The notes beneath the pieces are model-generated. The model saw nothing but the letters and a program-made list of their open reading frames with translations. It was not told the DNA's origin and ran no database searches. DNA of 64,000 nt from Hyaloraphidium curvatum (taxonomy: Eukaryota; Monoblepharomycota; Hyaloraphidiomycetes; Hyaloraphidiales; Hyaloraphidiaceae), in NCBI GenBank assembly GCA_025558095.1, contig JAIVFI010000018.1:1-64000 (forward strand), read 5' to 3'. A program made the position numbers and the translations under genes. The stretch's first letter is position 1. Each line of letters opens with the position of its first letter. Below are positions 661 through 63,504 of the stretch, one piece after another.

Positions 661-765
661 AGAACCCAGCAATCTCGGTGCCGTCCCTCACACCCCGGGA
701 AAAGATTGCGATCGTCTAAGCTTTCTGAGGTTGGACATATTGCTCTTCTCTGTTGCCGAACCGCG

Positions 766-2321
766 ATGGATCCCGCCGCGATTCCCGCCGGCGACGGCCT
801 GGCCACGCTCGGCGCGGCCGACTTCCTCGCCGTCTTCCCGCGCCCTCCGGCGCCCGACGCCCGAGTGCCCCGCGGCCTCCTTTCGCCTACGACGGACCCC
901 GCACTGCCGGCGCGTGAGGAGCGTCCCCTGACCCCCGAGTCAATGGTCGCATCTTTGAAGAACTTCCCACTCCAGCGCGCCCAGCTGGCCCTCCAGTTCG
1001 CCGTGCTCAAGCTCACCCGCGGCTACAAGTTGGCCTGGCTACACCAGTTTACACACACCGCTACGCTTGCCGCGGCGTTCGCCCTTGTCTTCCCGTTCAA
1101 CGACGGCACTTTCGGAACGCGGCACCTCGCGGTCGGGGCCGCAGCGTACTGGATCAACCTCTTTGGGTACACCTTGATCCATTTTCTCTCGGGAAGCTGG
1201 CGCCCCTCTGCCGACGGAACCGGCAATCCGCTGGACGGGCAGCTGGCTGCGGACCTCGTCAGATGGGCACAGTTGGTCGACACCGCAGGGGTTCCGGGCA
1301 CCGACAGGAAGCTGGAAGGCGGATCGGAGCCTTCTTTGCTCCTTGTGCACGACCCCGAGGACCCCTTGTGCCCATGTCCCAGGAAGGAGTGCGCGGGCGG
1401 TCTCCCCGAACGAAATGCCGCGCTCGCGGTTTTAACCAAGGTCTTCGCCATCCCCAGCTCCCTTTTATCCTGGAGCGTGCTTGGATTATGGACGGTTTGC
1501 GTAACTTTTGCTTCGCGTACCTGGGCCACGGGATGGGCGGCCTTCCTCGTCGTCATCGCGTTGCTGTGCCACGTTCTGTACGCGAGCATCACGATCGCCA
1601 TCTCAGTGGGCACATACGTGCCCCACGACTTCGACATCCAGAACCGGCTGCGGCGGCGCGTCATGACCATCGCGCTTTCGGACCTGGTGAAGAGGCTCGA
1701 GGGACCTTGGCAGCCGGGCGACGCAGCCGCAGCCCCTCCGCCAGCCGTGGAACCCTACACTTGGCTACATTCGTGGCTCGTTTCGGATTGGCAGCTGCAC
1801 CGGGTCTCCAGCGATGGGATCCGGAGGGTATTCGCCTTTGGTGTGCTGCTCGAGGTAGCTACGATCATGATCAGCGTGGTGCGTGAAGGCCGCAGCGTTC
1901 CACGAAGATCCCGCCCGCTGATTCCTTGCAGCTCGGCGCTTCCTGCGTCCCCGCATGGGCCATCTCCACCATGGCCGTCATCGCGTACTGCTTCCTCTCG
2001 AACCTCTACGCCGTCGCGGTGCAGAATGCCCACATCGACGGCACCGCTGCGCTCTACCTCGCGGCTGCGGACCGCATCTCTCTCCTCCTCCTACGCCCCG
2101 CCCCCGCGGGCACCGACAGGGATCTCGTCGCGCACCACGCCGTCGTCTTGCGAACGTACGCGGACCCGACGCGCTACAGGGCCAGATTCCTCGGCTTCGT
2201 CGTCACCTTCGGCGCCATCCGGACGCTGTTGCTCGCCGCGTTCACGGTCGCGGTCGGGCTGGTGGGACTGCTGCGTGGAGGAGGTGTCACCGTGACGCTG
2301 CAGAGCGTGTGCCCAGGGTGA
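766..2321 (+). CDS. Multi-pass membrane protein of unknown family, tandem copy 1
   Basis: Two exons, 766-1878 and 1932-2321, encode 500 residues. The 53-bp phase-0 intron (GTGCGT...TTGCAG) sits at the same place in all three copies. The N-terminal 60 residues are Pro-rich and almost identical in the copies. Hydrophobic segments lie near residues 95-113, 121-142, 225-250, 256-280, 356-371, 376-396 and 455-480, about seven membrane spans. A hydrophilic loop carries HDPEDPLCPCPRKEC with three cysteines, and the end of the protein is strongly conserved (RYRARFLGFVVTFGAIRTLL, GGGVTVTLQSVCPG). ATG 766 is chosen because it aligns with the other two copies. I recognise no family. Role unknown; membrane location is predicted only. 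Confidence 0.85.
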
Positions 2322-2592
2322 GGTGGGACGGACGGCCAAGAAGACGCGGGGGTCATGCGCAAGTAGATTCGTGCAATAGATCTATTTGCTGTGTTGAGCC
2401 ATCAAGATCGAGTTGCGCACAAAAGCCAATGCGGCTCTCTTCATCTCTTCGTGGGCGGGGCGGGTGGCGGGACAGCTCGTGAGCTGAGTCCGACTGTCCT
2501 GCACCCCGCCTGACGGCGCCGCAGTCGCCCTCGACACGCTTTCAAACAACCTCTAGAACAAATCGATCTATTCGTCGACCGCCCGGACCGCC

Positions 2593-4145
2593 ATGGAGCC
2601 CACGATCCCCGCCGGCGACGGCCTCGCGACGCTGGGCCCGGCCGACTTCCTCGCCGTCTTCCCGCGCCCCCCGGCGCCCGACCCCCGCGTGCCCCGCGGG
2701 CTCCTTCCTCCCACCGCGGACCCCGCCTTGCCTGCGCGTTCGGAGCGACCCCTGACTCCCGAGTAGATGCTGGCCTCGCTCGAAAGGTTCCCTCTCCAGC
2801 GCGCCCAGCTGGCCCTCCAGTTCATGGTGCTGAAGCTCACCGGCGGGTACAAACGCCCTTGGTTGCACCACTTGTCCTTTTCGGCGTCCCTCGCCGCGGC
2901 CTTTGCGCTCATCTTCCCGTTCAACGACGGCACGTTCGGGACGCGGCACCTCGCGGTCGGCGCCGCGGCGTTCTGGCTCAACGTTTTCGGATACACGCTC
3001 AATCATTTTCTGTCTGGAAGCTGGCGTCCGGCGGCCGACGAAGCCAGCAATCCCCTGGACGGCCACTTCGCCGCGGACCTCGTCAGATGGGCACAGCTGG
3101 TCGACGGTTCCGGAGCGACCGAAGCCGTGCGGAAGCTGGAGAACGGAACGGAAACCTCTCTGCTTCTTGTGCACGACCCAGAGGACCCGATGTGCCCCCG
3201 TCCCAGGAGGGAGTGCGCGGGCAGCGTCCCGGAGCGCAACGCCGCCTTCGCGTTCTTCTTCAAGGTCGTCGCCCTCTCCGGTCCCCTCCTATCCTGGACC
3301 GTCCTCGGCCTGTGGACGATCTACGTGACGTTCGCTCCTCGCACCTGGACCACGGGCTGGGCGGCCTTCCTCGTCGTTCTCGCCTTTCTGACCTCCCTGC
3401 TCTACTGTCCCGTGGTCACTTCCATCTCCACGGGCACGTACGTGCCAGGCGATTTCGACATCCAGAACCGGCTGCGGTGGCGCACCGTGTCCGTCGCGCT
3501 CTCCTATCTGGTGAGGCGGCTCGAGGCTCCCTGGAACCTCGGAGGCACGTCGACGGCGGCTCAGCCGGCCCCCGAGCCCTATACCTGGCTCCACTCATGG
3601 CTCGTGTCGGACTGGCGTATGTACCGCACCGTCGGCGACGGCATCCGGAGGACGTTCGCAATCGGCCTGATCATCGAGGCGGCGACAGTGGCGCTCAGCG
3701 TGGTGCGTGGTTCGCCTCCGCTCCCCCCGGAACCCGTTTCACGCTCCCTCCGCAGCTGGGCGCGTCCTGCGTTCCCGCATGGGCCATATCCAGCCTCGCC
3801 GTCATCGCGTACTTCCTTCTGTCCAACCTCTACGACGTCGCGGTGCAGAATGCCCACATTGACGGCATCGCGGCGCTCTACCTCGCGGCCGCGGACCGCA
3901 TCTCCCTCCTCCTCATCCGGCCGGCGCCCCCGGGTGCTGACAGGGAGCTCGTTGCGTACCACGCTTCGGTCCTGCGGACATACGCGGACCCGACGCGCTA
4001 CCGCGCGCGGTTCCTCGGCTTCGTCGTCACCTTCGGGGCCATTCGGACTCTGCTGCTGGCCGCGTTCACCGTCGCGGTCGGGCTGGTCGGGCTGCTGCGG
4101 GGCGGGGGGGTGACGGTGACGCTGCAGAGCGTGTGCCCGGGGTGA
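2593..4145 (+). pseudogene. Tandem copy 2 of the membrane protein family, interrupted by in-frame TAG
   Basis: Exons 2593-3702 and 3756-4145 match copy 1 throughout, including the 53-bp phase-0 intron. Cod­on 58 is TAG (2764-2766), where copy 3 has TCG and copy 1 TCA, both Ser. The frame is otherwise intact for 499 codons, with no indel and no further stop. An ATG follows the TAG directly at 2767, so a protein lacking the Pro-rich N-terminus but keeping every membrane span could still be made by reinitiation. No splice signals could remove the TAG. It may be a recent nonsense mutation, a base-call error or a functional shortened form. Confidence 0.8.
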
Positions 4146-5084
4146 GACACCGGGGCCGGCTCCAGCTCGGGACAGGCAGCATGCGCGGGGATCCGGAGCC
4201 GGGGGTGCCCGATTGGGACCATCCCGGGATATCCATACATGTGCTTTTGCGCGGAGCTTGCTTGCTTCATTCTCTTTGGGTGCGAAGCGCGGTAAACCCC
4301 GACTTGTCGGGCATCGTGTGAATCGGCTGCGCTCTTCGCTTCGACTGTCAGCTGCCACAAGGAGGGCAACGGGCCAGGTCGGGCGGGGTGCGGCACGGGA
4401 CCCGCCCGCAGTGCGGCCAGGGAGTCCGCAGGCCCAGGCCCGGCACGGACGAACAGTCCTTCCGCGGCCGGCCCTCACCCCGAGCGTCCCGAACCGCCGT
4501 CCGCGCATGCGGCGCCGCCGGAGCCCCGCCGGGCGGATCTTTGCGCGGCCCTGAGGCGGGCCCGCTCGGCGTATCGTCGCGCCGTTGCACCCGCGGGATG
4601 CCGAGGGGGGCATCGGGATGTCCGCTTCGCCGCCCGAGCCGCTTGAGGGGCCGAATGTGGCCGGCGAACCGGGTTGCCTTCCTACAACGTCCTGCTTCCG
4701 CATACCACGCTACCGGCCTGATTCGTGGCTCTGATTTTCAGATTAAGCAAGATCTTCCGGTGGCTCACGGCCGGAGGAGGAGCGGGAAGCTCTTGTGGAG
4801 ATTTCAGGGGATCGGCTAGGCGGCGTCCCAAACGCAATGCCACCACTCTGCTCTCCTTTCCCTCGGCGACAATCCGCCCTCGGGCGGGCAGCGATACCAG
4901 TGGCCGATTTCGTTCCGTTCTGGGCCGGTGACTCGCCCTCGATCGGGTGGCCGACGCGCTCGATCCAATTCCCGGGTCCGAGGCGGCGATTCGGAGGGCG
5001 GGGTCTGGGCCCCGTCGGCCGGCCTGAAGAGGCAGAGCGGGACGCAAACATCCGAGCGCAAAACTCCACCGACAGCGACCCGCG
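4146..5084. other. Gene-poor interval between copy 2 and the PP1-motif gene
   Basis: There are only overlapping GC-rich open frames with low-complexity translations and no recognisable domain. Near-antisense long frames here are expected from the base composition. It presumably holds the 3' end of copy 2 and the promoter of the gene at 5085. Confidence 0.5.
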
Positions 5085-5822
5085 ATGGGAGTCGAGCGCC
5101 CGCGCACCGCGCCGATGCCGCCGCCGCGCCTCGCGTGGCCGCCGCCGCGCTCCGAGCCGCTCCGCGCCGAGAGGGAGAACAGCGCCGCCGGGCCCCCCCG
5201 CGCCGCCGACCCCACCGGCCTGCGCACGCCGCCGCCCACGCCGACGCCCGAGGGCGCGTGCTGGGGCTGCCTGTCGGGGGCGTGCTGCGGCTGCGACGAC
5301 GCAGGCTGGGAGACCGCGAGCGCCGGGACCTCGACGACTTCGGCGTCCTCGGCCGCAGGCGACTCCTCGGCATCGGAGGTTTCGGAATCGACAAACAGGA
5401 CTGGCTTCCGGCACATCGGGGCGTCGAGCCTGCGCAGCGTCGCCAGCACAGCGAGCACAAAGAGCGTGCGGTTCGCCGACGCCGTGGAGGTCTTCTCCGA
5501 CGACTGCGAGGACGCTGGCGCCTCGGGGGACCTTGAGGACGACGAGGACGACGACCGGCCCGCCACTGCTGGCGCCGAGCAGCCCCGCTGGACCCAACCG
5601 GACCTCGGCGTGCCGCGGCCCGACGCCGTCAACGCATGGGCGGCGCACCTCGGCGCCCTCCTTGCCGGCCCGGAGCATACGCTTCCCGAGGGCGGGGCGT
5701 CGCAGCTGCGGGCGGCATGGCCGGCGTTGCTGCACGGCCAGTCAGCGGAGCTTATTGACTTTGGGGTCAAGCCGGCGGAGGGTGCGGGGAGACTGCCGGA
5801 CCTGAGGGCCTTTTGGCGGTGA
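5085..5822 (+). CDS. Disordered acidic protein with a PP1-docking-like motif
   Basis: A single exon of 245 residues. The first half is Pro/Ala-rich with a short cysteine cluster (ACWGCLSGACCGC near residues 58-70). The middle contains KSVRFADAVEVF, which fits the K/R-x-V/I-x-F docking consensus for protein phosphatase 1, followed by a long Asp/Glu run. The last 70 residues look more ordered, ending in LPDLRAFW. In fungi an xVRFxDxVEV block of this kind is common in PP1-associated or stress-regulatory proteins, so a phosphatase-targeting role is plausible but inferred from one motif. It sits inside the tandem membrane-protein array, which it does not resemble. Confidence 0.65.
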   Translation: MGVERPRTAPMPPPRLAWPPPRSEPLRAERENSAAGPPRAADPTGLRTPPPTPTPEGACWGCLSGACCGCDDAGWETASAGTSTTSASSAAGDSSASEVSESTNRTGFRHIGASSLRSVASTASTKSVRFADAVEVFSDDCEDAGASGDLEDDEDDDRPATAGAEQPRWTQPDLGVPRPDAVNAWAAHLGALLAGPEHTLPEGGASQLRAAWPALLHGQSAELIDFGVKPAEGAGRLPDLRAFWR

Positions 5823-6329
5823 TTGGCTATGGACGGATCGTGCCGGTGCCTTGGCCCCGTCCGATTGACGAACTGTACATAGTGCTAGAGATGAGAGGTA
5901 CCCGTTCGGTTAGCCGTTACTTCCAGTGCCGATCATGTGCTTCGCCGCGAGTCAGAGCGCAACCACAATGTTCCCGGTTTGGCCTGTGCCCTTCTCTGAA
6001 GCGAGTACGTCACAAAGGAGCTCCCAAAGTCTAGTAGACGCTTCGCATTCACGAATTTGTCACTGGAGCTTTCAATGTCCGTCGGAGCCGAAGCGAGGCT
6101 TCCTCCTGTCACGATTCCAATGTAGCGTTCCTTCGGCTTTGCTCTTTACGTGGTGTTGTGCAAATCAGGGCTTATGTGTGGCATGGTATCCTCGCGAGCA
6201 AGAAAGGGCTGAGCGGCACTCGGCGTGCCCACCTGTGTTCCCCGCAACCACTGACCTGCCCGGCCCAGCCTCCGCGTCTGAAGAGAAAGAGCTGCTATCG
6301 GACTTTGTCTTTCAACGTCCCGAAACGCA
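5823..6329. other. Intergenic interval upstream of copy 3
   Basis: About 500 bp, less GC-rich than the flanking genes, with no convincing reading frame. It probably holds the promoter of copy 3. Confidence 0.5.
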
Positions 6330-7890
6330 ATGGACCACGCGATTCCCGCCGGCGACGGCCTCGCGACGCTCGGCCCGGCCGACTTCCTCGCCGTCTTCCC
6401 GCGCCCCCCGGCGCCCGACGCCCGCCTGCCCCGCGGCCTCCTTCCGCCCACGGCGGACCCCGCGCTACCGGCGCGTGAGGAGCGACCCTTGACGCCCGAG
6501 TCGATGCTCGCCGCGCTGGGGAAGTTCCCGCTCCAGCGGGCCCAGCTTGCGCTGCAGTTCGACGTGCTCAAGCTCACAGGCGGCTACAAGCTGCCGTGGC
6601 TCCATCATTTCGTCTTCTGTACGGCCAACGTCGCGGTGTTCTGCCTCATTTTTCCTTTCAACGACGGCACGTTCGGGTCGCGGAACCTCGCGACTGGGGC
6701 CGCGGCAGTCTTCTTCAACGCCTTTTCATACACTGTGGTCCATTTTCTGTCTGGCAGCTGGCGGCCGGCCGGCGACAAGGCCAACAATCCTCTGGACGGT
6801 CACTCGGCCGCGGACCTCGTCCGATGGGCGCAGCTGGTCGATGCTGCTGGCGGAGCCACCGAAGTCGAGCGGAAGCTGGAGACTGGACCAGAATCTTCTC
6901 TTCTTCTGGCTCACCATCCCGAGGACCCTCTGTGCCCTTGCTCCAAGAAAGAGTGTGTAGGTGTCATCCCGGAAACCAACGCCATGTTGGCTTTTGTAAC
7001 CAAGCTGGTGGTCTCTATCCTTGGCCCTCTTGTGTCCTGGAGCGTTCTGGGACCGTGGACGATCTACATCACGTTTGCTTCGCGCACTTGGTCGACGCCC
7101 TGGGCAGCTTTTCTCGCCGTCGCTGCTTTGCTCCTGCATCTGCTCTACTGTATCACGCTCGCTTCCCTCTCCACGGGCACATATGTACCCTACGACTTCG
7201 AGGTCCAAAATCGGCTGCGGCGGCGCACCATGTCCATCGCGTTATCGGATTTGGTGAATCGGCACGAGGCAAATTGGAAGGGGGGCGAGTCCGCTTCAAC
7301 GCCCCCACCTGCCGGCGAACCCTACACTTGGCTCCATTCATGGCTCGTTTCGGATTGGCAAATTCACCGTATCATCAGCGACGGCATCCGGAGAGTTTGG
7401 ACCTTTGGTGTGCTGATCCAAGTCGGGACAATCATCATCAGTGTGGTGGGTACGCCGTCGGCGCTTCCAGCGGAGATGGTCTTACACCCCAGCATCGCAG
7501 ATCGGTGCCTCCTGCGTTCCCGCATGGATCATTTCCGCCATGATTCTCATCACGTTCGGCTTCCTCTCCAGCCTGTATGCGGTCGCTGTGCAGAACCACC
7601 ACATCGACGGCACCGCGGCGCTCTACCTCGCGGCCGCGGACCGCATCTCCCTCCTCGTGCTGCGTCCCGCCCCGGCGGGCACCGACAGGGAGCTCGTCGC
7701 GCACCACGCAACAGTCTTGCGTACCTATGCCGACCCGACGCGCTACCGGGCCCGGTTCCTCGGGTTCGTAGTCACCTTCGGGGCCATCCGGACGCTTCTG
7801 CTCGCGGTGTTCACCGTCGCTGTGGGATTGGTCGGGCTGCTGCGGGGAGGAGGTGTCACGGTGACGCTGCAGAGCGTGTGCCCGGGGTGA
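6330..7890 (+). CDS. Multi-pass membrane protein of unknown family, tandem copy 3
   Basis: Exons 6330-7445 and 7501-7890 encode 501 residues. The 55-bp intron (GTGGGT...CATCGCAG) is at the same phase-0 position as in copies 1 and 2. Domain layout is as in copy 1: a Pro-rich N-terminus, about seven hydrophobic segments, a loop with CPCSKKEC, and the conserved C-terminal block from the RYRARF motif to CPG. Differences from copies 1 and 2 are spread mainly through the middle, while both ends are nearly unchanged, which suggests purifying selection or gene conversion at the ends. The frame is fully intact, so this copy and copy 1 are the likely functional genes. Confidence 0.85.
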
Positions 7891-22139: not shown

Positions 22140-23158
22140 CTACCGTCTTCCCGGCACGGTCGTCGTCCTCCTCCTCGACGTCGTCCTCCCCGCCCGTGGC
22201 AGCACCTGCGGCGCGTACACCCTCAGCACCGAGTCCACCCACGGCGCCACCGCCGATACCCGAGAATACGCCCCGTATATGAAGTCCGGCGACGCGCACG
22301 TGCCTTCCGCGCCCCAGCTCACGATGCCCACGAGCACCTGCGTCCCGTTGACCGTGGCGAACAGCGGCCCGCCCGAATCGCCGTTGCACGCGTCCACCCC
22401 TGGCGCACCGGCGCAGATCATCGTGCCGGGATAGTACTGCCCCCCCAGATAGTACCCGCACTCGTCGTTCGAGGCCACGGGGAACCCGGCGCGCTGCAGG
22501 ATCCGGGGGAACCCCGCGGCCTCGCCCAGCTTGCCCCACCCGAGCACCGTCGTCCTCGTTCCCGCCCGTGGGAACGCCGGGTTCCGGTTTATCGCGATCC
22601 AGCGCGGGGTGAATGCCGCGCGGCCGTACCGCGTCGGCGGGCCGAGGACGAGGACAGCCGCATCCCATTGGAGGGTGAAGGAGTCGAAGCGGGGGTGGAC
22701 CAAGGCGAGGCGAGGGCGGTAGTCGGTGCCGCCTTCGCGGGAGGAGGAGAGGGAGATGTTGCGCCGGTACGTCGAGGCTAGCCATTCGGAGGCTTGCGTG
22801 CCGCGGACGCAGTGCCCTGTCAAGACGCCGTCAGCAAACAGGGGCCGTTTCGCCGGCCGGGGTGGGGCCCACCTGCCGTCAGGACGACGTTGGGCGCGAT
22901 CATGGTGCCGCCGCACGACCAGCCCCGGTAGGAGTTGACGAGGCGGACCATCCAAGGGAAGACATATTGGGCAAGAACGGGGGAGCCTCCGACCACGTTG
23001 GGCACCAGCGCCCCGAGCGTCACGTTCCGGCCCATTAGTTGCCCGGAAGTAGAGCCGGGATCCGGGTCGGCAAAGGCGCCAGCGAGGGCAGAAAGCAGCG
23101 CGGCGGCGCAAAGAAGCCCGAAGCCCGGCCGCGGCCGTCGCGGTCCCGGGGGCCGCAT
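22140..23158 (-). CDS. Secreted trypsin-like serine protease (S1 family)
   Basis: Exons 22873-23158 and 22140-22816 (56-bp intron) encode 320 residues. A signal peptide (GFGLLCAAALLSALAGAFA) is followed by a short propeptide and the domain start VVGGSPVLAQYVFPWMVRL. Splicing creates the catalytic histidine motif VLTAGHCV. The catalytic Asp is in TLQWDAAVLVL and the catalytic Ser in DACNGDSGGPLF. Asp six residues before the Ser predicts cleavage after Lys/Arg. The core ends at APWVDSVLRVY, followed by a basic tail. ATG 23158 is chosen because it directly precedes the signal peptide; an in-frame ATG lies at 23338. Probably an extracellular digestive protease. Confidence 0.92.
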
Positions 23159-26135: not shown

Positions 26136-29100
26136 TCAGCGCTTCGCAGTGACCGTCTTGAAGATCGTCGACCTGATGGTTGTTTTCGCGATCTGGGTGG
26201 GAAGGGCAGTGAGTGACCGGCAGAGCGGCGCCGCGAGGGTGGGCCCGACGCACCGTAACTTTGACCGTCGCCGTAATCGTCGATTTGATCGTCGTTTTCA
26301 CCGTGACCTGCAGCAAAGGGGTTCAGGTTCCTCGAGGATCGGCCCGCGCGCCCGCAACCCACCTTGGAGGTCGACACCTGGGTCGAGGTGGCCACCTTGG
26401 TGGTCGTACGGATCGTCGTGGCCGTTTTCGTTGCGGTCACAGTGATTTTGGCGAGGCTGGTGGTCTTGGTCCGCGTCGAGAAGATCGTGGTGGGCTGGAT
26501 CGAGGTCAGCGTGGCAAAGACCGTCGTCGTCGTCGGCACGGTCAGGGTCGAGGAGATTGTGACGGGCGCCGGGGGAGGGAGGGTGACGGTTGAGGTAGAG
26601 ACCAGAGTGGTCGTGACCTGCAGCGTGGCCGTGCCGCCGGGGAGGGTGGTCGTCGAGACGGACGTGACCGTTGCCGTGCTGACAGCCGTCTGCGTCGAGA
26701 CAGAGACGACGGTGCTCGTCTGCAGCAGGGTGCTCGTTTGCACCAGGGTGCTGGTCTGGACCAGGGTGGCAGTGGTCGTGACGGTCTGGATCGGAACCAG
26801 ATGAGCGCGGGAAGCAGCTCTGGTGCGGAAGGGGGCCTTACCAGGGTTTCGGTCGGCAGAAGCGTCGGCGTCTCCGTCGTCTGCGTGGTTGCGGCCGTGA
26901 ACGGGTTCTGCTCGTCCACGCGCAGGGGCGACGAGTCGAGCCGGCCGCACGTTTGCACCCCGTGCGGGGCGAAGCACGTGTAATTGGGGCCGTTCGTGCA
27001 TCCGGGCTCCACGTCGATGATGTACGAGAAGATGAAGGGCACAAGGTCCGACGGTACGAGCACCGAGTCCGTGCAGTGGTCCGCCCCGTCCGACCAGACT
27101 GTGTTCCCGAAGCCGTCCTGCTGCCAGCGCAGCTCTTGCCTGAAATCCACTGCTCGAAGATGGGCAATGCGGCCGCGAGCGTCAGTCACCGTCCACAGCA
27201 CCGCGCTGGCGCAAACACCCACGGGCCTTGACGCTGTCGGGCAACCACTCGACGGACATGACGCCGTCCACGCCCACTGGGATCGCGTCCACGTAGAACT
27301 TCTTGGCCCTCACCAGGCTCCTTCCCCGCAGCTTTTGGGGACCGTACTCGTCGCACGACGCCTGCTCGTAGGTCGCGGGCCACTCATTGGGCCGCGTGCC
27401 CGGGATGAAAGCCACATTGATCGATGTCAAGTTGCCCGAGCCCACTGAGCAGGAGACGGAGAAAAGAGCCATCAAGACCTGGAAGACGGGTTGACCGCCC
27501 AAGCCACGCACCGTTCGCCGCGTCCGCGCAGGTGTCCGTAGGCGAGAAGAAGAAGCCGACCGAGTAGAACCCGGGAGCAGGCGTGGGGCTCGGTCCCCAC
27601 GTTTCGGTCAGCGTGGCCGTCCCTGTAGGGAACTCGGTGGCAGTCCCCGTGGGGAACTCAGTGGTTGTGCCCTGTGTGCGGGGGAGAGATCGTTAATCCA
27701 CGAGCCGCGTTCGCTGGCGGCGCACCCACCGTCGGCGTCGCCTCCTTCCACCCGATCCTGATGGGCGAGTCCTGCAGCGGCCCGCACCAATCCACTTCGG
27801 ACATGCCGGCGTTGGTGTACCTGCAGTAGGGCTCCGAGCCGTTGTACGGGCTCGAGCACGACCTCACCAGCTACGTGCGATCCGTCAGCCCAGCCGCCTG
27901 GTCGGCCAGCAGCGATCCAGCAACCCACTTGGAACTCCACCGAGTTGACGTTGCCGAGCTCCAGCGGGTCCCAGCACCGCCCAATGAACCCGATCTTCTG
28001 CATGATGAGGGCTGCTCCCACGTCAGCCGCGCTCCTATCCGTCGCGTTCAGCCTACTCACGATTGCTCTTGACCGACGCCGGGAACCAGCTCTCCATGCC
28101 GATGATCCCCTCGGCCGACACGCCCGCGGCCTCGGTGGAGAAGTAGGTCTTGTACCTGTAGTTCAGCCCGCCCGTGCCGCCCTGGCAGGAGGCGTCGGAG
28201 AAGGAGTTGGGCGGGGGAGCGGCGTTGTCGCCAAAGTAGTAGCTGGCGACCGCAAGGTCGAGGGTGTCGCTGCGCTGCAGCGCGGCGGGGTCGAACACTG
28301 CGGCACAGGGCGATCAGCCACGGCCCGGACCTGCGCGCCGCGTAAGCCCACCTTCCGCCTCGGTCTCGCAAGTCGAGTACGCGGCGGTCGACCACCTCCA
28401 GAAGGCGTACCTGGGCGTCGCCGGCCCCGTGGGCTGCGCGGTGCCCGTAAGCGTCGGCGTCGGCGTTAGCGACGGCCCGACGGGCTCCTGCGAAATCGTC
28501 CGTCAGCGTCGTGCCGGATTGAGGGGACGGAGCCTCACCGTCGTGGTCGCGAACCCGGTCGTCGTGCCCGATCCGTTGGGATCCACGCCGAGCCGGAGCG
28601 GGGACGAGGCCAGCTGGCCGCAGTACCCGACCTCGTAGCCAAACATCCCTTGGAAACACGAGTACGACTCGAGCGTGGCGCAGGACACGAGCGACTGCAG
28701 CCCGCGGGGTGAGGTCCCGGTGCGCGGAACTGGCGAGGATGCACCCACGTCGAAGCGGATCTGAACGATCTTGGGGACGTCCTCCGTTGTGAGCGCCCTG
28801 TTGCACGGGTCCACCCCCGCGCCAAACGTGACGCGTTGGTAGATGCGCGCTGGTGGCCGCCCGATCAGATCCCTGGAGGCACGGGAACGTTGCGCGGGGT
28901 TCACCCACGTTTGGTCTTGACGTCCGCCGGGATCCACGGCTCCAGCCCAATAATCCCTTCGGGTGACACGTCCCACGCCTGCTGCTGGAAGGTGAAGTGC
29001 CTCGAGAAGTACTGGGCGCCACCGCCGCCAGGGTAGTCCGTGCAGGACGTCCCCGTGAAGGTCGACAGGTTGGAAGAGTAGAAGGCGTTGGGCTCGGAGA

Positions 29101-30259
29101 AGTACTCGGCCGAGGCGAGGGAGAGGAAGCCGGACGCGGGATGGTCGACCGAGAAGACTGCAGGGATGGGGACGAGGTAAGCTTCAGCACACAAATGGAG
29201 GTGCACAACTCGTACTCGAAGACGAGTTCTCGCAGGTGGAGTGGAACTCCTTCTTCCACGCCCAGACGGCCTGGCGGCGGAACGGAGTACTCGTCGGGGA
29301 GGTGCCCGTGCCAGTGCCCGTCGGTGATTCCGTCGTCGCCGGCTGCGTTTCCTGCATCTGAGGTGTCAGCCGCCGAGCAAGTACGGGGACGCCGCAAACC
29401 CACAATTGACCCCGTCGTGGTCGTTGCTGTTGTCCCCCCTTGATCGATCCTCAGCGGGGACGAGGCAAGCGGGCCACAGTACGACACTGTAGGCCCGTCG
29501 ATGTCGAACGCGCTGCAGTAGGTCAGCGCGGGGGAGCAGCTCGGCGCGCGCTGCGGATCGGCGTGAGCGTGCTCCGGGCGGGCGCTATAAGGAAGACCCA
29601 CGGCGAAGCGGACCCTGCGGATGTTGGGCAGGTCGGCGGCGACGAGGGCGCGGTTGCAGGGGTTGACGCCGTCGGCGAAGATGATCTGCTGCTGCATCGT
29701 TGCTGGACAAGCGGTTGGGACAGTGAGCTGCGGCGCCGAGTCCGCGGTGGGAGACCCACCGAGCGTCTTGACCGAGTCCGGGAAAAAGGACTCCATGCCA
29801 ATGATGCCCTCGGCCGAGACCGGCCAGCCGTCGCGCCCGAAATAGTACTGCTTGTTCCATGCGTCCCCGCCTTGTGTGCAGGGCGCGTCGGCGAACGGCA
29901 GCGCCGAGATGCCGTCGTTGATGTACCACGGCAGGGCGGTGGAGTTGACGTAGGTGACGTACTCGCGGGCGCTGACGGCGGCGTCCCCGGGCGGCACCGA
30001 GAAGACTGCGTTTTGTGGTCAGCGGCGCGGGGGCCGTGCAGCGGGCGGGCGCACCTCCGTCCCCGGCCGGGCACGCCGAGTGCGGCGGCGACCAGAAGTA
30101 CCATATTGCCGTGAAGTTGGACTGCGTGTCGCGCGGCGCGAGGGCGTGGGGCGCGGGGGCGTGCGGCGCGGGGTGCGCGGGGTGCGCGGCAGCGGGCGAT
30201 GCGAGGAGCGCGGCGGCCGCGAGCGCCGCGACGCGGAGGACGCCGCTGGCGGGCGGCAT
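26136..30259 (-). CDS. Secreted surface protein with four tandem copies of an undescribed Cys-containing unit and a Thr-rich tail
   Basis: Sixteen exons: 30055-30259, 29760-30005, 29404-29702, 29210-29351, 28909-29157, 28539-28849, 28352-28487, 28061-28297, 27929-28011, 27730-27870, 27512-27671, 27223-27444, 26842-27149, 26363-26785, 26254-26307 and 26136-26192, giving 3273 nt and 1090 residues. A signal peptide (LAAAALLASPAAAHP) is followed by four units of 199-250 residues. Each unit has an exon ending in a W...HSxC motif, one ending in EGIIGMES-W/F-FP-SVK, and one with CNRAL...CGPLASSPLRI; intron phases repeat 0-1-1-0. The last 177 residues are Thr/Val/Ser repeats (STLVQTSTLLQTSTVV) without a GPI signal or membrane helix. 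It is likely a wall-associated or adhesin-like protein; function unknown. Confidence 0.85.
26842..27671 (-). repeat. Unit 4 of the four-unit surface protein
   Basis: Exons 27512-27671, 27223-27444 and 26842-27149 (residues 684-913). It is the most divergent unit: VGFFFSPTDTC, VDGVMSVEWLPDSVKA, HCTDSVLVPSDLVPF and TCGRLDSSPLRV. The intron phases are still as in units 1 and 2. Confidence 0.75.
27730..28487 (-). repeat. Unit 3 of the four-unit surface protein
   Basis: Exons 28352-28487, 28061-28297, 27929-28011 and 27730-27870 (residues 485-683). Motifs YAFWRWSTAAYSTC, SAEGIIGMESWFPASVKSN and WCGPLQDSPIRI. Its third exon is split by an extra 58-bp phase-0 intron, and the CNRAL motif has diverged. 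Confidence 0.75.
28539..29351 (-). repeat. Unit 2 of the four-unit surface protein
   Basis: Exons 29210-29351, 28909-29157 and 28539-28849 (residues 251-484). It opens with a Thr/Pro linker, then AVWAWKKEFHSTC, SPEGIIGLEPWIPADVKTK, VDPCNRALTTEDVPKI and YCGQLASSPLRL. Confidence 0.8.
29404..30259 (-). repeat. Unit 1 of the four-unit surface protein
   Basis: Exons 30055-30259, 29760-30005 and 29404-29702 (residues 1-250). Motifs AIWYFWSPPHSACP, SAEGIIGMESFFPDSVKTL, VNPCNRALVAADLPNI and YCGPLASSPLRI. It includes the signal peptide. Confidence 0.8.
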
Positions 30260-31729
30260 TTCGGGGAGTGGGCGGCGCCGGTAGATCGGCGCGTTTCGTG
30301 GGTGGAACGGGAAGTTCAGTGGTGACTAGCGAGTCTGACTGCTCGGGGGGATTGGCTGGTCGTGGCGCAGGGGATGACGTAGCTCGAGTCAAATTTCCAT
30401 CGTCGGCCGCCTTGTCCCGCCGTAGCGAGTTGCAAAAGGCAAGGAAACTGCAAATCGCGGCTTTTGACGCCCCTGTCCCCGGCCCCCGCGGCTTCGACAA
30501 GCGGGGCGCGCTCTCCCGCACCGCATCTGGACACTTGGGGAGAGGCCTAGGCACTCGCTACAAGCTCCTCACGCTCCGCAGACAGACAACGGGGAAGAAT
30601 CGTGCATTTCGAACAAATCAACGATTTCCACGAATCCTGACCCCGGTCCAGAGGTTCGGACCGTCGCGGCCGTTTGATCCCCCATCCTCGACCGACGGGC
30701 CCCGCCGAAGGCGCCCGCGGCTGGTCCACACAGCCGTGCCCATTTCATTGCCCTTTTCCATTTCTGCAGATCCAGCACGAGAACCCAGCGCGGGTCAATG
30801 TCCTGTTCCGGCCCACCATCGCGGTATTCCATGCGGGTGCCGTTTGCTGACCGACCCTCGACACCTCGGAGCCGAATTTTCGCTGCGGTCCCACCGGAGC
30901 GCACTCCGGGGCCACATTGTTTCGGACGAGGCCCTTCGAGAACGGTCGCAGTCGACGGCGCCAAATCGGATGGACCCCCTGTGATGTGGCTCGATTCTCG
31001 GGGTCCGGGGGACACCAGTAATTCCCGCCTCCATGCTGCCGTCCTCGGGACCGACTGTAGGTCAGATGGCGAGGCCAGGAAGAACCGGAGCCTCCGGAAT
31101 TCCCCGAGGTGTGACCGGCAGAGGCGATTCCGGAGGTGCCGCGTGGCGTTGGTAGCGCAAATGTTGGAGGCGCCCGCCATCTCCACAAAGATGAATAACG
31201 GAGAATGCCGTGATTCGGTCTGACCAGCGCCCGGGGGCCAGGGGCCCGAACCGCCGCCTTTTCCGCCCGCCACCGGCCGGTGCGTCCCTCGAGCACCAAC
31301 CCGCCCGTCCCTCAACCGCGCCGGCGCGAGCTCCCCGGCGGCGAGCCGGAGGCAGGCCGGAACTCCGAGCCGCGGGCTTTCGCTGGGCCGGAGGAACTCC
31401 CTACGGCCGCTGGACCCGAAGGTTTGCGGCTGCGGGGCGGCGGGCGGCGGCACGGCTGGTGCGTCCCAGGGATGGCCTCGACGCTCCCCCGCGACCTGTG
31501 CGCCGGCTGGTGCCAAGACGGGTGGCCGTGGAGGGAGTCCACCATAAGGAGAACAGACCCGTGCATCAGCTGCCCCCGCGGTGCGACGGCGGGGCTTGGG
31601 GAAGGACCGATTTGCCTTCTTGTGACTAATAGTCATCCGCCTGGACCGCGCCGTTCCGCCGGACCGAAACCCACCGGCCACAGAGAAAATACAGCCTGCG
31701 TACCGCGGAACCAGCAGCGCACCGCCGCT
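30260..31729. other. Long interval without a supported gene
   Basis: About 1.5 kb between the starts of two divergent genes. It holds long GC-driven frames on both strands but no domain. I searched in particular for a Zn2Cys6 exon that could belong to the downstream transcription factor and saw no CxxCRxRKxKC pattern. Confidence 0.5.
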
Positions 31730-33844
31730 ATGCCCGTGCTCGCCACCGGCGGGCGCCCGCCGGGCCGCTCCGCGGAGCCCGACGCCGACGACGACAGCAA
31801 CGACTGGGGCAGTCTCGTGCAGCGCGCCGAGGCGTACGCCCACGCGGACGACGCCGACGAGGAGGAGGACGACCGCGACAGCGCCGTGTCGCTGCACTCC
31901 GGCGGGGGCACCGGCCGCCGCGGCCGCGGCGCGCACTACGTGCCGGCAAAGTGGGGTGCCGCCGACGTCGACGGCCACGCGAGCCTGCCGTCGGCCGCGG
32001 GCTCGGTGATCAGCCTGGCCAAATTGCCGCTGGCGAAATTGGGCGCCGGCAGTGGGCCGGTCTCCCCGAACTCGTGCTCCTCCGAGGCGTTCCTGCCCTC
32101 CCCCGGCCACCCCCGGGACGTGCACGTGCACCGCAGCATGTCGGACCCCGGCTTCCCGATCGGCTGGAGCACCGACCGCGAGCCGCCCTTCTCGGCGTAC
32201 GGCCCCGCCTTCCCCATGCCGACGCAGTCGCGCTCCGCCGCGCTGGCCGTGGCCGACGCCCCCGCGATCTCGGACCTGCTGCTGCCCTCGCTCACGGGCT
32301 ACTTTGCGCACTTCCACCGCCTGTTCCCGCTGCTGCACCGGCCCACCTTCGAGCGCGCGTTCCGCAGCGGCGCATCGGCCTACGGCAACAAGCGGCCGCT
32401 CGCCCTGACCTACGCCGCCGCGGCCGTCGGCGCCGCCGAGATCGAGGACGTCCCGGACGCCCAAAAAATCGCCTACACGCGGTGGTGCTGCAACCGCGCG
32501 AGGGACCTGCTGCTTGCACAGGGTGCCGCGGACCTCGAATCCGCGCAGGCGCTCTGCCTGCTGATGGACGTGATGCTCAGGGCGGGGGAGCCCGCGAGCA
32601 TGCTGCCGCTGGTGCAGCGCGCGGCGCTGATCGTGGACAAGCTGTACCTGAGCATGCCGCCCGGGTTCCCTCCCGACGCCGAGTCGTGGGCCATCCGCGA
32701 GATGGTGCTGCGGCTGCGCATCTACGTGGCCGCCTACGACGTCGGCACCGCCTCGACGACAGGCAAGCCCACCATCGGGCACTACTGGCACGCGCACAAG
32801 TTCCCCATCCCCGCCACCGAGGCCGAGTTCGACTCGCCGGATCCCGAGGCGGCGCACATGACGGCCGAGGCGCGGTACGACGCCGGACTGGAGCCCACCG
32901 TGGACTTTGGCAAGTCCGACTACGCCTCCATCTCCTCGGCCATGCGCATCCTCGCCGGCGCGCCGTTCGGCGGCGGCGGCTCGGTGCTTTCGATGCTCCA
33001 TCTTGCCAACTACGCCTCCCACATCCGGGACTCGCTCCTCTCCTCCGCACCCGGCCCATCGGGAACCGACCGCCGGCACAAAACCGCCGTGCAATCCGCC
33101 CTCTGGGACGCCACCACGGGCGCGCTGCCCCCCGACATCTGCAAGGGCCTCGCCCGCGGCGACGCCGGCCCCCTCCTGCGCGGGTGGAAGGCCTACTTCC
33201 CCGACCCCGCGCACGCCCACGCCGCGCTGCAGTCCTTCCTCCTCGCCAAGCGCGCGGCGATCGAGGTGTTTGCCCGCTCGGGCTTCGTCGCCGCCGCCGT
33301 CTCGCGGTGCTCGCGCTTCGTCCGCACCCTCGACTCGACCATCAAGCACGACCCCGCGCTGCCGTACTGCCACTCCGGGCTGGCGAGCCCGGCGGCGGCG
33401 GTGGGGAGGATGCTGATCGACGAGGCGAGGCAGCTGCAGGACCACCCGGGGCCGTTCGAGACGCCCGAGGAGCGGACGGAGAGGGAGAGGCGGAAGGAGG
33501 AGCTGATCATGCAGGCGAGGATATGTTGCCGCGTACTGGGGAGGCTGGGCGCCGTGTACGGCCTGAACTGTGGGTGTCTGGCCGGCGCTGCGGTTCTCGA
33601 TCGCAATATGTTGACGCAGGCCCCCCTTACAGTGAGACAGGCGGCCAAGGGCTACCACGCCGAGATGGTCGCCGCCGGCTGGGCCTCGGCCACGTGCCCG
33701 TCGGCGTCGCTGAACGACCTGTCGGAGGAGGAGGCCGAGTTCCGCTCGGACGTGGGGAGCCACGGGCACACGGAGGAGTTCGGGGGGTCGACGGTGCTGT
33801 TTGCCGAGGAGAAGATGGCGAGAGGGGTCGTCGGGGCGGCTTGA
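31730..33844 (+). CDS. Fungal-specific transcription factor domain protein without visible zinc cluster
   Basis: Exons 31730-33569 and 33633-33844; the 63-bp intron (GTGGGT...TTACAG) is a multiple of three and could be missed. The product is 683 residues. Residues 1-170 are disordered with acidic and Ser-rich patches. The fungal_trans middle-homology region starts at LLPSLTGYFAHFHRLFPLLH followed by RPTFERAF, and continues through YAAAAVGAAEIEDVPDA and LCLLMDVMLRAGEPASMLPL, typical of Zn2Cys6 regulators. No CxxC zinc cluster precedes it. It may act as a cofactor, or its DNA-binding exon may be unrecognised upstream. A helical, charged segment (ERTERERRKEELIMQARIC) follows. Confidence 0.8.
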   Translation: MPVLATGGRPPGRSAEPDADDDSNDWGSLVQRAEAYAHADDADEEEDDRDSAVSLHSGGGTGRRGRGAHYVPAKWGAADVDGHASLPSAAGSVISLAKLPLAKLGAGSGPVSPNSCSSEAFLPSPGHPRDVHVHRSMSDPGFPIGWSTDREPPFSAYGPAFPMPTQSRSAALAVADAPAISDLLLPSLTGYFAHFHRLFPLLHRPTFERAFRSGASAYGNKRPLALTYAAAAVGAAEIEDVPDAQKIAYTRWCCNRARDLLLAQGAADLESAQALCLLMDVMLRAGEPASMLPLVQRAALIVDKLYLSMPPGFPPDAESWAIREMVLRLRIYVAAYDVGTASTTGKPTIGHYWHAHKFPIPATEAEFDSPDPEAAHMTAEARYDAGLEPTVDFGKSDYASISSAMRILAGAPFGGGGSVLSMLHLANYASHIRDSLLSSAPGPSGTDRRHKTAVQSALWDATTGALPPDICKGLARGDAGPLLRGWKAYFPDPAHAHAALQSFLLAKRAAIEVFARSGFVAAAVSRCSRFVRTLDSTIKHDPALPYCHSGLASPAAAVGRMLIDEARQLQDHPGPFETPEERTERERRKEELIMQARICCRVLGRLGAVYGLNCGCLAGAAVLDRNMLTQAPLTVRQAAKGYHAEMVAAGWASATCPSASLNDLSEEEAEFRSDVGSHGHTEEFGGSTVLFAEEKMARGVVGAA

Positions 33845-63033: not shown

Positions 63034-63504
63034 TCCGCCGCCCCGCGGACGCCGGGAGCGCCCGCACAAGATCGTGCCCCGCGGCGGGCCCGGACACGGG
63101 GGAGCGGTGTGTGCGGAGTTTTCGTAGGTGGGGCCGGTCGGCCGGCGCGCACAAGTCAACTAACCCCTCCCCTCTTCCCCGAATTCAATGTATATGGCGT
63201 GACGTGATGTATCGGGGTTGGGGGGCGCTCAGCGCCTGTGATAGAGATCTGACGTGATGCGCCTTTGCCCGCGCCTCCCCATTTCCGATCCCGCCCTGGC
63301 CAAAAGCTCCAAGGCGCCGACGATCCATCCGCATCCCTCGTCACGTGGTGCGCCTTTGCCCGCGCCTCCCCATTTCCGATCCCGCCCCGGCCAAAAGCTC
63401 CAAGACGCCGACGATCCATCCGCACCCCTTGTCACCTACCCCCACACCCACGACCTTCCCCTTTGTTCGACCCTCTCCGTCCGCCAGCTTGTGCCCTCCG
63501 GCGA
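63034..63504. other. Intergenic interval containing a 91-bp direct repeat
   Basis: The interval lies between the GT14 gene start and the stop of the minus-strand gene at 63505. Its main feature is the repeat listed separately; no coding signal. Confidence 0.5.
63252..63433. repeat. Two tandem copies of a 91-bp sequence
   Basis: Copy 1 spans about 63252-63342 and copy 2 about 63343-63433. Both contain GCGCCTTTGCCCGCGCCTCC, then CATTTCCGATCCCGCCC, GGCCAAAAGCTCCAAG and GACGATCCATCCGCA; only a handful of positions differ. It lies just upstream of the GT14 gene and downstream of the gene at 63505. Confidence 0.9.

Follow-up and report, generated by a model that had tools for sequence, protein, structure and literature searches.

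The window analysed here, a stretch of 64,000 nucleotides from Hyaloraphidium curvatum, contains on its minus strand (30259 to 26136) one gene, whose exons join in frame into one predicted secreted protein that carries four homologous copies of a six-cysteine module. The module, of about 175 residues, has six copies in the genome: besides units 1-4 of this protein, two more genes, C4 and C34, carry one unit each. Because the module is also found in these two other genes, we take it to be no one-off oddity but, probably, a family of extracellular modules for binding that is still uncharacterised. From the N-terminus, the protein is formed by a signal peptide, the four units on Thr-rich linkers, and a Thr/Val/Lys tail. 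We have high confidence in this description of the gene and its modules. In early-diverging fungi the annotation of extracellular proteins is poor, and lineage-specific Cys-rich modules are common in the proteins that fungi secrete.

The preferred gene model has 18 exons that encode 1054 amino acids (Table 1), with all of its 17 junctions, predicted from the DNA, in frame. The first-pass annotation had proposed 16 exons and 1090 residues; joining those exons reproduces exactly 1090 residues in frame, but it is the longer exon list that we prefer. A simple gene-finding Viterbi procedure was trained on the codon and splice usage of the four-unit gene itself, hence it is partly circular; on the strand of the gene it recovered the same exons, bar one acceptor that was 3 nt off. 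The four-unit gene scored 481, while the other strand reached 82 and none of 20 Markov-shuffled versions exceeded 33; the gene is no chance pattern. At two joints the model may be off by a few residues: intron 5 has three candidate donors, of which 29215 is one, and for the acceptor of intron 14 there is an alternative 3 nt further in (27149). Moreover, units 1-4 are homologous to each other, with pairwise local alignment scores 10 to 47 SD over those of shuffled sequences. The original proposal of one gene with four units holds. All 24 cysteines of the predicted protein lie inside the units, six in each, and the signal peptide, the linkers and the tail have none. As read from the translation, this placement of the cysteines supports the gene model independently.

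Table 1. Exons and selected introns of the four-unit gene, in window positions, and dynein heavy chain loci of the genome.
Feature	Position	Strand	Description
Exon 1	30055..30259	-	ATG, signal peptide, His/Pro/Ala-rich spacer, unit 1 W exon; ends in phase 1
Exon 2	29760..30005	-	EGIIGMES exon of unit 1, phase 1 to 1
Exon 3	29602..29702	-	First part of unit 1 CNRAL exon; ends in phase 0
Intron 3 (unit 1)	29551..29601	-	51 nt, no stop, multiple of three; exon in the first-pass annotation
Exon 4	29404..29550	-	CGPLASSPLRI part of unit 1 and Thr linker
Exon 5	29216..29351	-	Linker and unit 2 W exon
Exon 6	28909..29157	-	EGIIGLEP exon of unit 2
Exon 7	28749..28849	-	First part of unit 2 CNRAL exon
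Intron 7 (unit 2)	28695..28748	-	54 nt, no stop, multiple of three; exon in the first-pass annotation
Exon 8	28539..28694	-	CGQLASSPLRL part of unit 2 and linker
Exon 9	28352..28487	-	Linker and unit 3 W exon
Exon 10	28061..28297	-	EGIIGMES exon of unit 3
Exon 11	27929..28011	-	First part of unit 3 third exon
Intron 11 (unit 3)	27871..27928	-	"Gained" intron of the first-pass annotation; same site as introns 3 and 7, and same phase
Exon 12	27730..27870	-	CGPLQDSPIRI part of unit 3 and linker
Exon 13	27512..27671	-	Linker and unit 4 W-type exon
Exon 14	27223..27444	-	DGVMSVEW exon of unit 4
Exon 15	26842..27152	-	Unit 4 third exon without internal intron, and linker
Exon 16	26363..26785	-	Thr/Val-rich tail
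Exon 17	26254..26307	-	Thr/Lys tail
Exon 18	26136..26192	-	Conserved tail end IAKTTIRSTIFKTVTAKR and TGA stop; gene C4 ends similarly
Dynein heavy chain loci	L034 (C38), L035 (C4), L036 (C16)

Introns 3 and 7 can be read as coding sequence since they are free of stops and their lengths are multiples of three. Both have the form GTGGGT...CAG, lie in phase 0 and fall in the same alignment column as intron 11 of unit 3, which places the joint at column 175 in units 1-3. Once they are removed, units 1-3 align at that joint without gaps with unit 4 and the C34 copy, both intronless there, and the spacing to the next cysteine is the same as in these two copies. In addition, the C4 paralogue must splice at this position, as its intron, read on the sequence, holds a stop and shifts the frame; the intron is likely of the GC-AG kind, after LSFILIE (C4:875769-875703, L017). 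The shared joint, the cysteine spacing and the splicing of C4 argue for introns 3 and 7 being true introns. The first-pass annotation had attributed an intron gain to unit 3, and this must be withdrawn, because units 1 and 2 (and C4) have an intron at the same column and phase.

Intron positions coincide between units at columns 36 and 129 (128 in unit 4) besides column 175. In all six units, as read on the sequence, a phase-1 joint follows both the W exon and the EGIIG-type exon, and the boundaries between units of the four-unit gene are phase 0 at matching alignment columns. The 0-1-1-0 pattern of phases that had been described for the exon triplets is therefore confirmed. The phase-0 boundaries also make possible the duplication of a whole unit without breaking the frame, as was claimed for the whole triplet. 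The C34 unit is without flanking introns of the phase-0 boundary kind found in the four-unit gene.

In the four-unit alignment the other units are 28-37% identical to unit 1, with conserved strips at about 25-37%. Twelve columns are invariant in the six units (C20, C68, G92, P101, C123, C146, C166, G167, L169, S172, P173 and R175), and every copy has six cysteines at matching places together with the strip C-G-x-L-x-x-S-P-x-R. The fifth cysteine is present in every unit, but its position shifts by one residue between copies. Having six cysteines in each unit and none elsewhere would fit three disulfides per unit. Both halves of the unit are found together in six out of six copies, never apart, thus we treat it as one module; the idea of a domain pair, put forward at the first reading, finds no support.

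The profile search with the aligned units that the first-pass annotation had suggested gave no known-domain match above cut-off, and neither did any other search of Pfam-A, NCBIfam and PDB sequences, whether done with the full protein, with single units or with four- and six-unit profiles. In the per-unit scan the only Pfam model that scored was DUF7140 (PF23601), with unit 3 at an E value of 0.031; we judge this a chance match, since it covers 20 residues, reaches 14.6 bits against a cut-off of 27 and concerns one of six members. SPARC_Ca_bdg (E 0.07) and TIGR03006 (E 0.21), which match one member each, are also judged to be chance. When units 1-3 were used to scan viral contigs and the genomes of prokaryotes, no relative was confirmed, and a literature search found no paper on the module family. 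The description of the module as undescribed holds for Pfam-A, NCBIfam, PDB and the prokaryotic and viral collections, which are what these negatives cover; they do not imply that the family is new to fungi or scarce in them, where unnamed homologues may well exist. The module is also shared with the C4 and C34 genes.

Structure prediction of one unit, also suggested earlier, gave a weak model. The AlphaFold input consisted of unit 1 and exact single-stretch translations of window and locus DNA, mostly single exons, amounting to 12 mostly fragmentary rows, in which one row reads through intron 7 (18 intron-coded residues) and a few fragment ends are misaligned. The mean pLDDT was 55 and the pTM 0.44; only residues from about 100 to 180 reach a pLDDT of 70-86, with short helices and four strands. 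Foldseek gave no meaningful match with this model, the best E values being 2.2 in the PDB and 0.39 among viral models. A second-look structural alignment against the PDB gave, at best, faint matches to GPIHBP1, a three-finger protein, with Z 2.9 over 67 residues and Z 2.7 over 66. Three-finger (Ly6/uPAR) domains such as that of GPIHBP1 resemble the predicted unit in being beta-rich and disulfide-rich, but the Z is within the noise range, the unit is twice as long, and a match of the cysteine patterns would be hypothetical. The absence of a structural match does not show that the fold is new, and a model this weak lends support neither to a fold nor to a ligand.

Of the two relatives in the genome, C4 is a one-unit protein and C34 a predicted large mosaic. 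The C4 gene, assembled by eye, has an ATG and a signal peptide-like stretch, then a single unit followed by a Thr/Ser/Val tail, and its tail end, KITIAKTTIFKTVA, is close to that of the four-unit protein, IAKTTIRSTIFKTVTAKR. In the C34 region (L015), a genuine unit copy, closest to unit 4, lies within one open frame between other extracellular modules, with its W exon at 98218-98117, its exon 2 at 98056-97865 and its exon 3 from 97803. Unlike in the four-unit protein, the unit is embedded there among other Cys-rich modules: its W exon is fused to those upstream, and its third exon, which lacks the third intron, continues intronless into the first of several repeated ones. Downstream there are matches to a teneurin-type NHL propeller and to Peptidase_M8 (leishmanolysin-type). 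Only the simple gene finder joins the unit, the NHL-type and the Peptidase_M8 regions into one predicted mosaic gene. Across C34:91001-109000 (L015, L016) we observed repeated Cys-rich modules without Pfam match and copies of the NHL-type propeller, and the Peptidase_M8 region contains the motif HEMGHVLGIG. Several repeats of about 402 bp in C34 are nearly identical, which at sequence level suggests recent duplication.

In a tree of the six units, unit 4 and the C34 copy group together (support 0.95) and away from units 1-3, and C4 falls between the two groups. The third, phase-0 intron splits the subfamilies as well: units 1-3 and C4 have it, unit 4 and C34 lack it, a distribution that fits one putative loss or gain on the unit 4/C34 branch. 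Units 1-3 are tandem copies. Given its grouping with C34 and the shared absence of the third intron, unit 4 represents an old subfamily that was brought into the same protein. It is the most divergent unit, as had been noticed from the start, but the cause is this affiliation; unit 4 as a locally decayed copy was considered and rejected on account of the grouping.

The N-terminus of the four-unit protein has a hydrophobic stretch typical of a signal peptide, in line with the secretion proposed originally, and the protein sequence has eight N-glycosylation sequons. The Thr/Val tail of the first-pass annotation is likewise recovered; it measures 177 residues, including 66 Thr and 15 Lys/Arg and no Asp or Glu. 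The label "surface protein" is a deduction: the signal peptide-like N-terminus is visible, but a GPI-type hydrophobic C-terminus is absent from the protein sequence. Predicted secretion and modularity follow from the sequence, and we infer the disulfides, the O-glycosylation, the extracellular or wall location and the binding of a ligand. In the mechanism that we propose, the signal peptide would be followed by the four modules, probably with three disulfides each, separated by Thr/Ser/Pro linkers that are probably O-mannosylated. The repetition of modules would most likely give multivalent, adhesin-like attachment at the wall or the extracellular matrix, and the basic Thr/Val tail may hold the protein to wall polymers. 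This reading, of a multivalent binding protein that is secreted and associated with the wall or the surface, is the one that we prefer, and we give it about even odds. Fungi have modular adhesins, such as flocculin- or Als-type wall proteins, with which it shares a secretion signal, folded modules, Ser/Thr-rich linkers or stalks and a possible multivalent display. In contrast to them, the four-unit protein has no sequence match and no GPI signal, and it repeats whole disulfide domains instead of short Thr repeats.

Other explanations have to be weighed against this one. The protein might be a structural wall glycoprotein with no specific ligand, its units serving just for crosslinking or packing. 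The Thr-rich linkers and a basic Thr/Val tail without GPI signal would agree with that, but the good conservation of six cysteines and of long strips (about 25-37% identity) speaks for a folded domain under selection, and we consider this explanation possible, on the unlikely side. A catalytic module, that is, a secreted hydrolase or inhibitor-like enzyme whose activity is multiplied by four copies, is quite improbable in our opinion, even if the C34 copy has other extracellular modules around it and a leishmanolysin-type peptidase in the same region, and a trypsin-family gene is nearby in the window. The module matches no enzyme family, and no Asp, Glu or His is identical in the six copies; one position beside the EG/DG (EGIIG-type) motif is always acidic (Glu or Asp). 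Because conservation falls on structural residues (Cys, Gly, Pro and the C-G-x-L-x-x-S-P-x-R strip) and no Asp, Glu or His is invariant, we read the module as binding or scaffolding, not as an enzyme. More than one gene, for example one with units 1-3 and another with unit 4 plus the tail, could be imagined from the fact that unit 4 belongs to another subfamily and that the joints are predicted from DNA. This is highly improbable: all joints are in phase, the linkers resemble one another, the stretches between units have no stop, no start and no signal peptide, and the C4 unit, of the other subfamily, carries the same type of tail.

A further matter is the novelty of the module. The unit could be a very divergent member of a known domain family, for instance a carbohydrate-binding beta-sandwich or a three-finger-like disulfide domain, beyond recognition by profile searches. 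We take this as a serious possibility that falls short of probable, considering that the profiles were built on six sequences only, that the C-terminal half of the unit is predicted to be beta-rich and has many cysteines, and that there is the faint structural match to GPIHBP1. On the other hand, the sequence libraries gave no notable match, the best Pfam hit staying under its cut-off, the Foldseek E values were poor, and a Z under 3 is within noise. The most far-reaching interpretation sees in the unit an extracellular domain family of its own, whose disulfide-rich fold would be new and which would belong to one early-diverging lineage of fungi. Within that lineage, phase-compatible exon sets would have been duplicated and shuffled, carrying the unit into mosaic proteins that are adhesin-like or contain a protease. 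We consider this interpretation rather unlikely. If the family were restricted to one genus and had a known fold, it would be an ordinary case. A six-copy family whose subfamilies are dated by an intron can seed the alignment of a new Pfam-type entry, and it allows exon-set duplication to be put to the test in a fungus. Moreover, introns 3 and 7 illustrate how gene models can be misled by stop-free introns with lengths that are multiples of three.

The GC-rich genome also gives indications about the lineage. One search found three dynein heavy chains (Table 1), one of them cytoplasmic and two axonemal of the outer-arm kind, with best matches to the DNAH9/17-type and the DNAH5-type; the same search found no inner-arm or IFT (DYNC2) chain, which is no proof of absence. 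The axonemal dyneins, by which the fungus retains genes for a swimming tail, combined with a gene in the window that has a fungal-specific transcription factor domain, point away from the Dikarya and to a fungus that is zoosporic by lineage or closely related to such a lineage. The transcription factor gene (31709-33814, plus strand) points away from the four-unit gene across about 1.45 kb. The trypsin-family serine protease frame occupies 22152-22778 on the minus strand (Pfam E 1.8e-27). Elsewhere in the window, positions 751-7796 hold three copies of a long unit, spaced by 1824 and about 3740 bp and 71-85% alike, probably a tandem gene family of membrane-type proteins, and two adjoining 91-nt copies, 95% alike, are found at 63252-63433.
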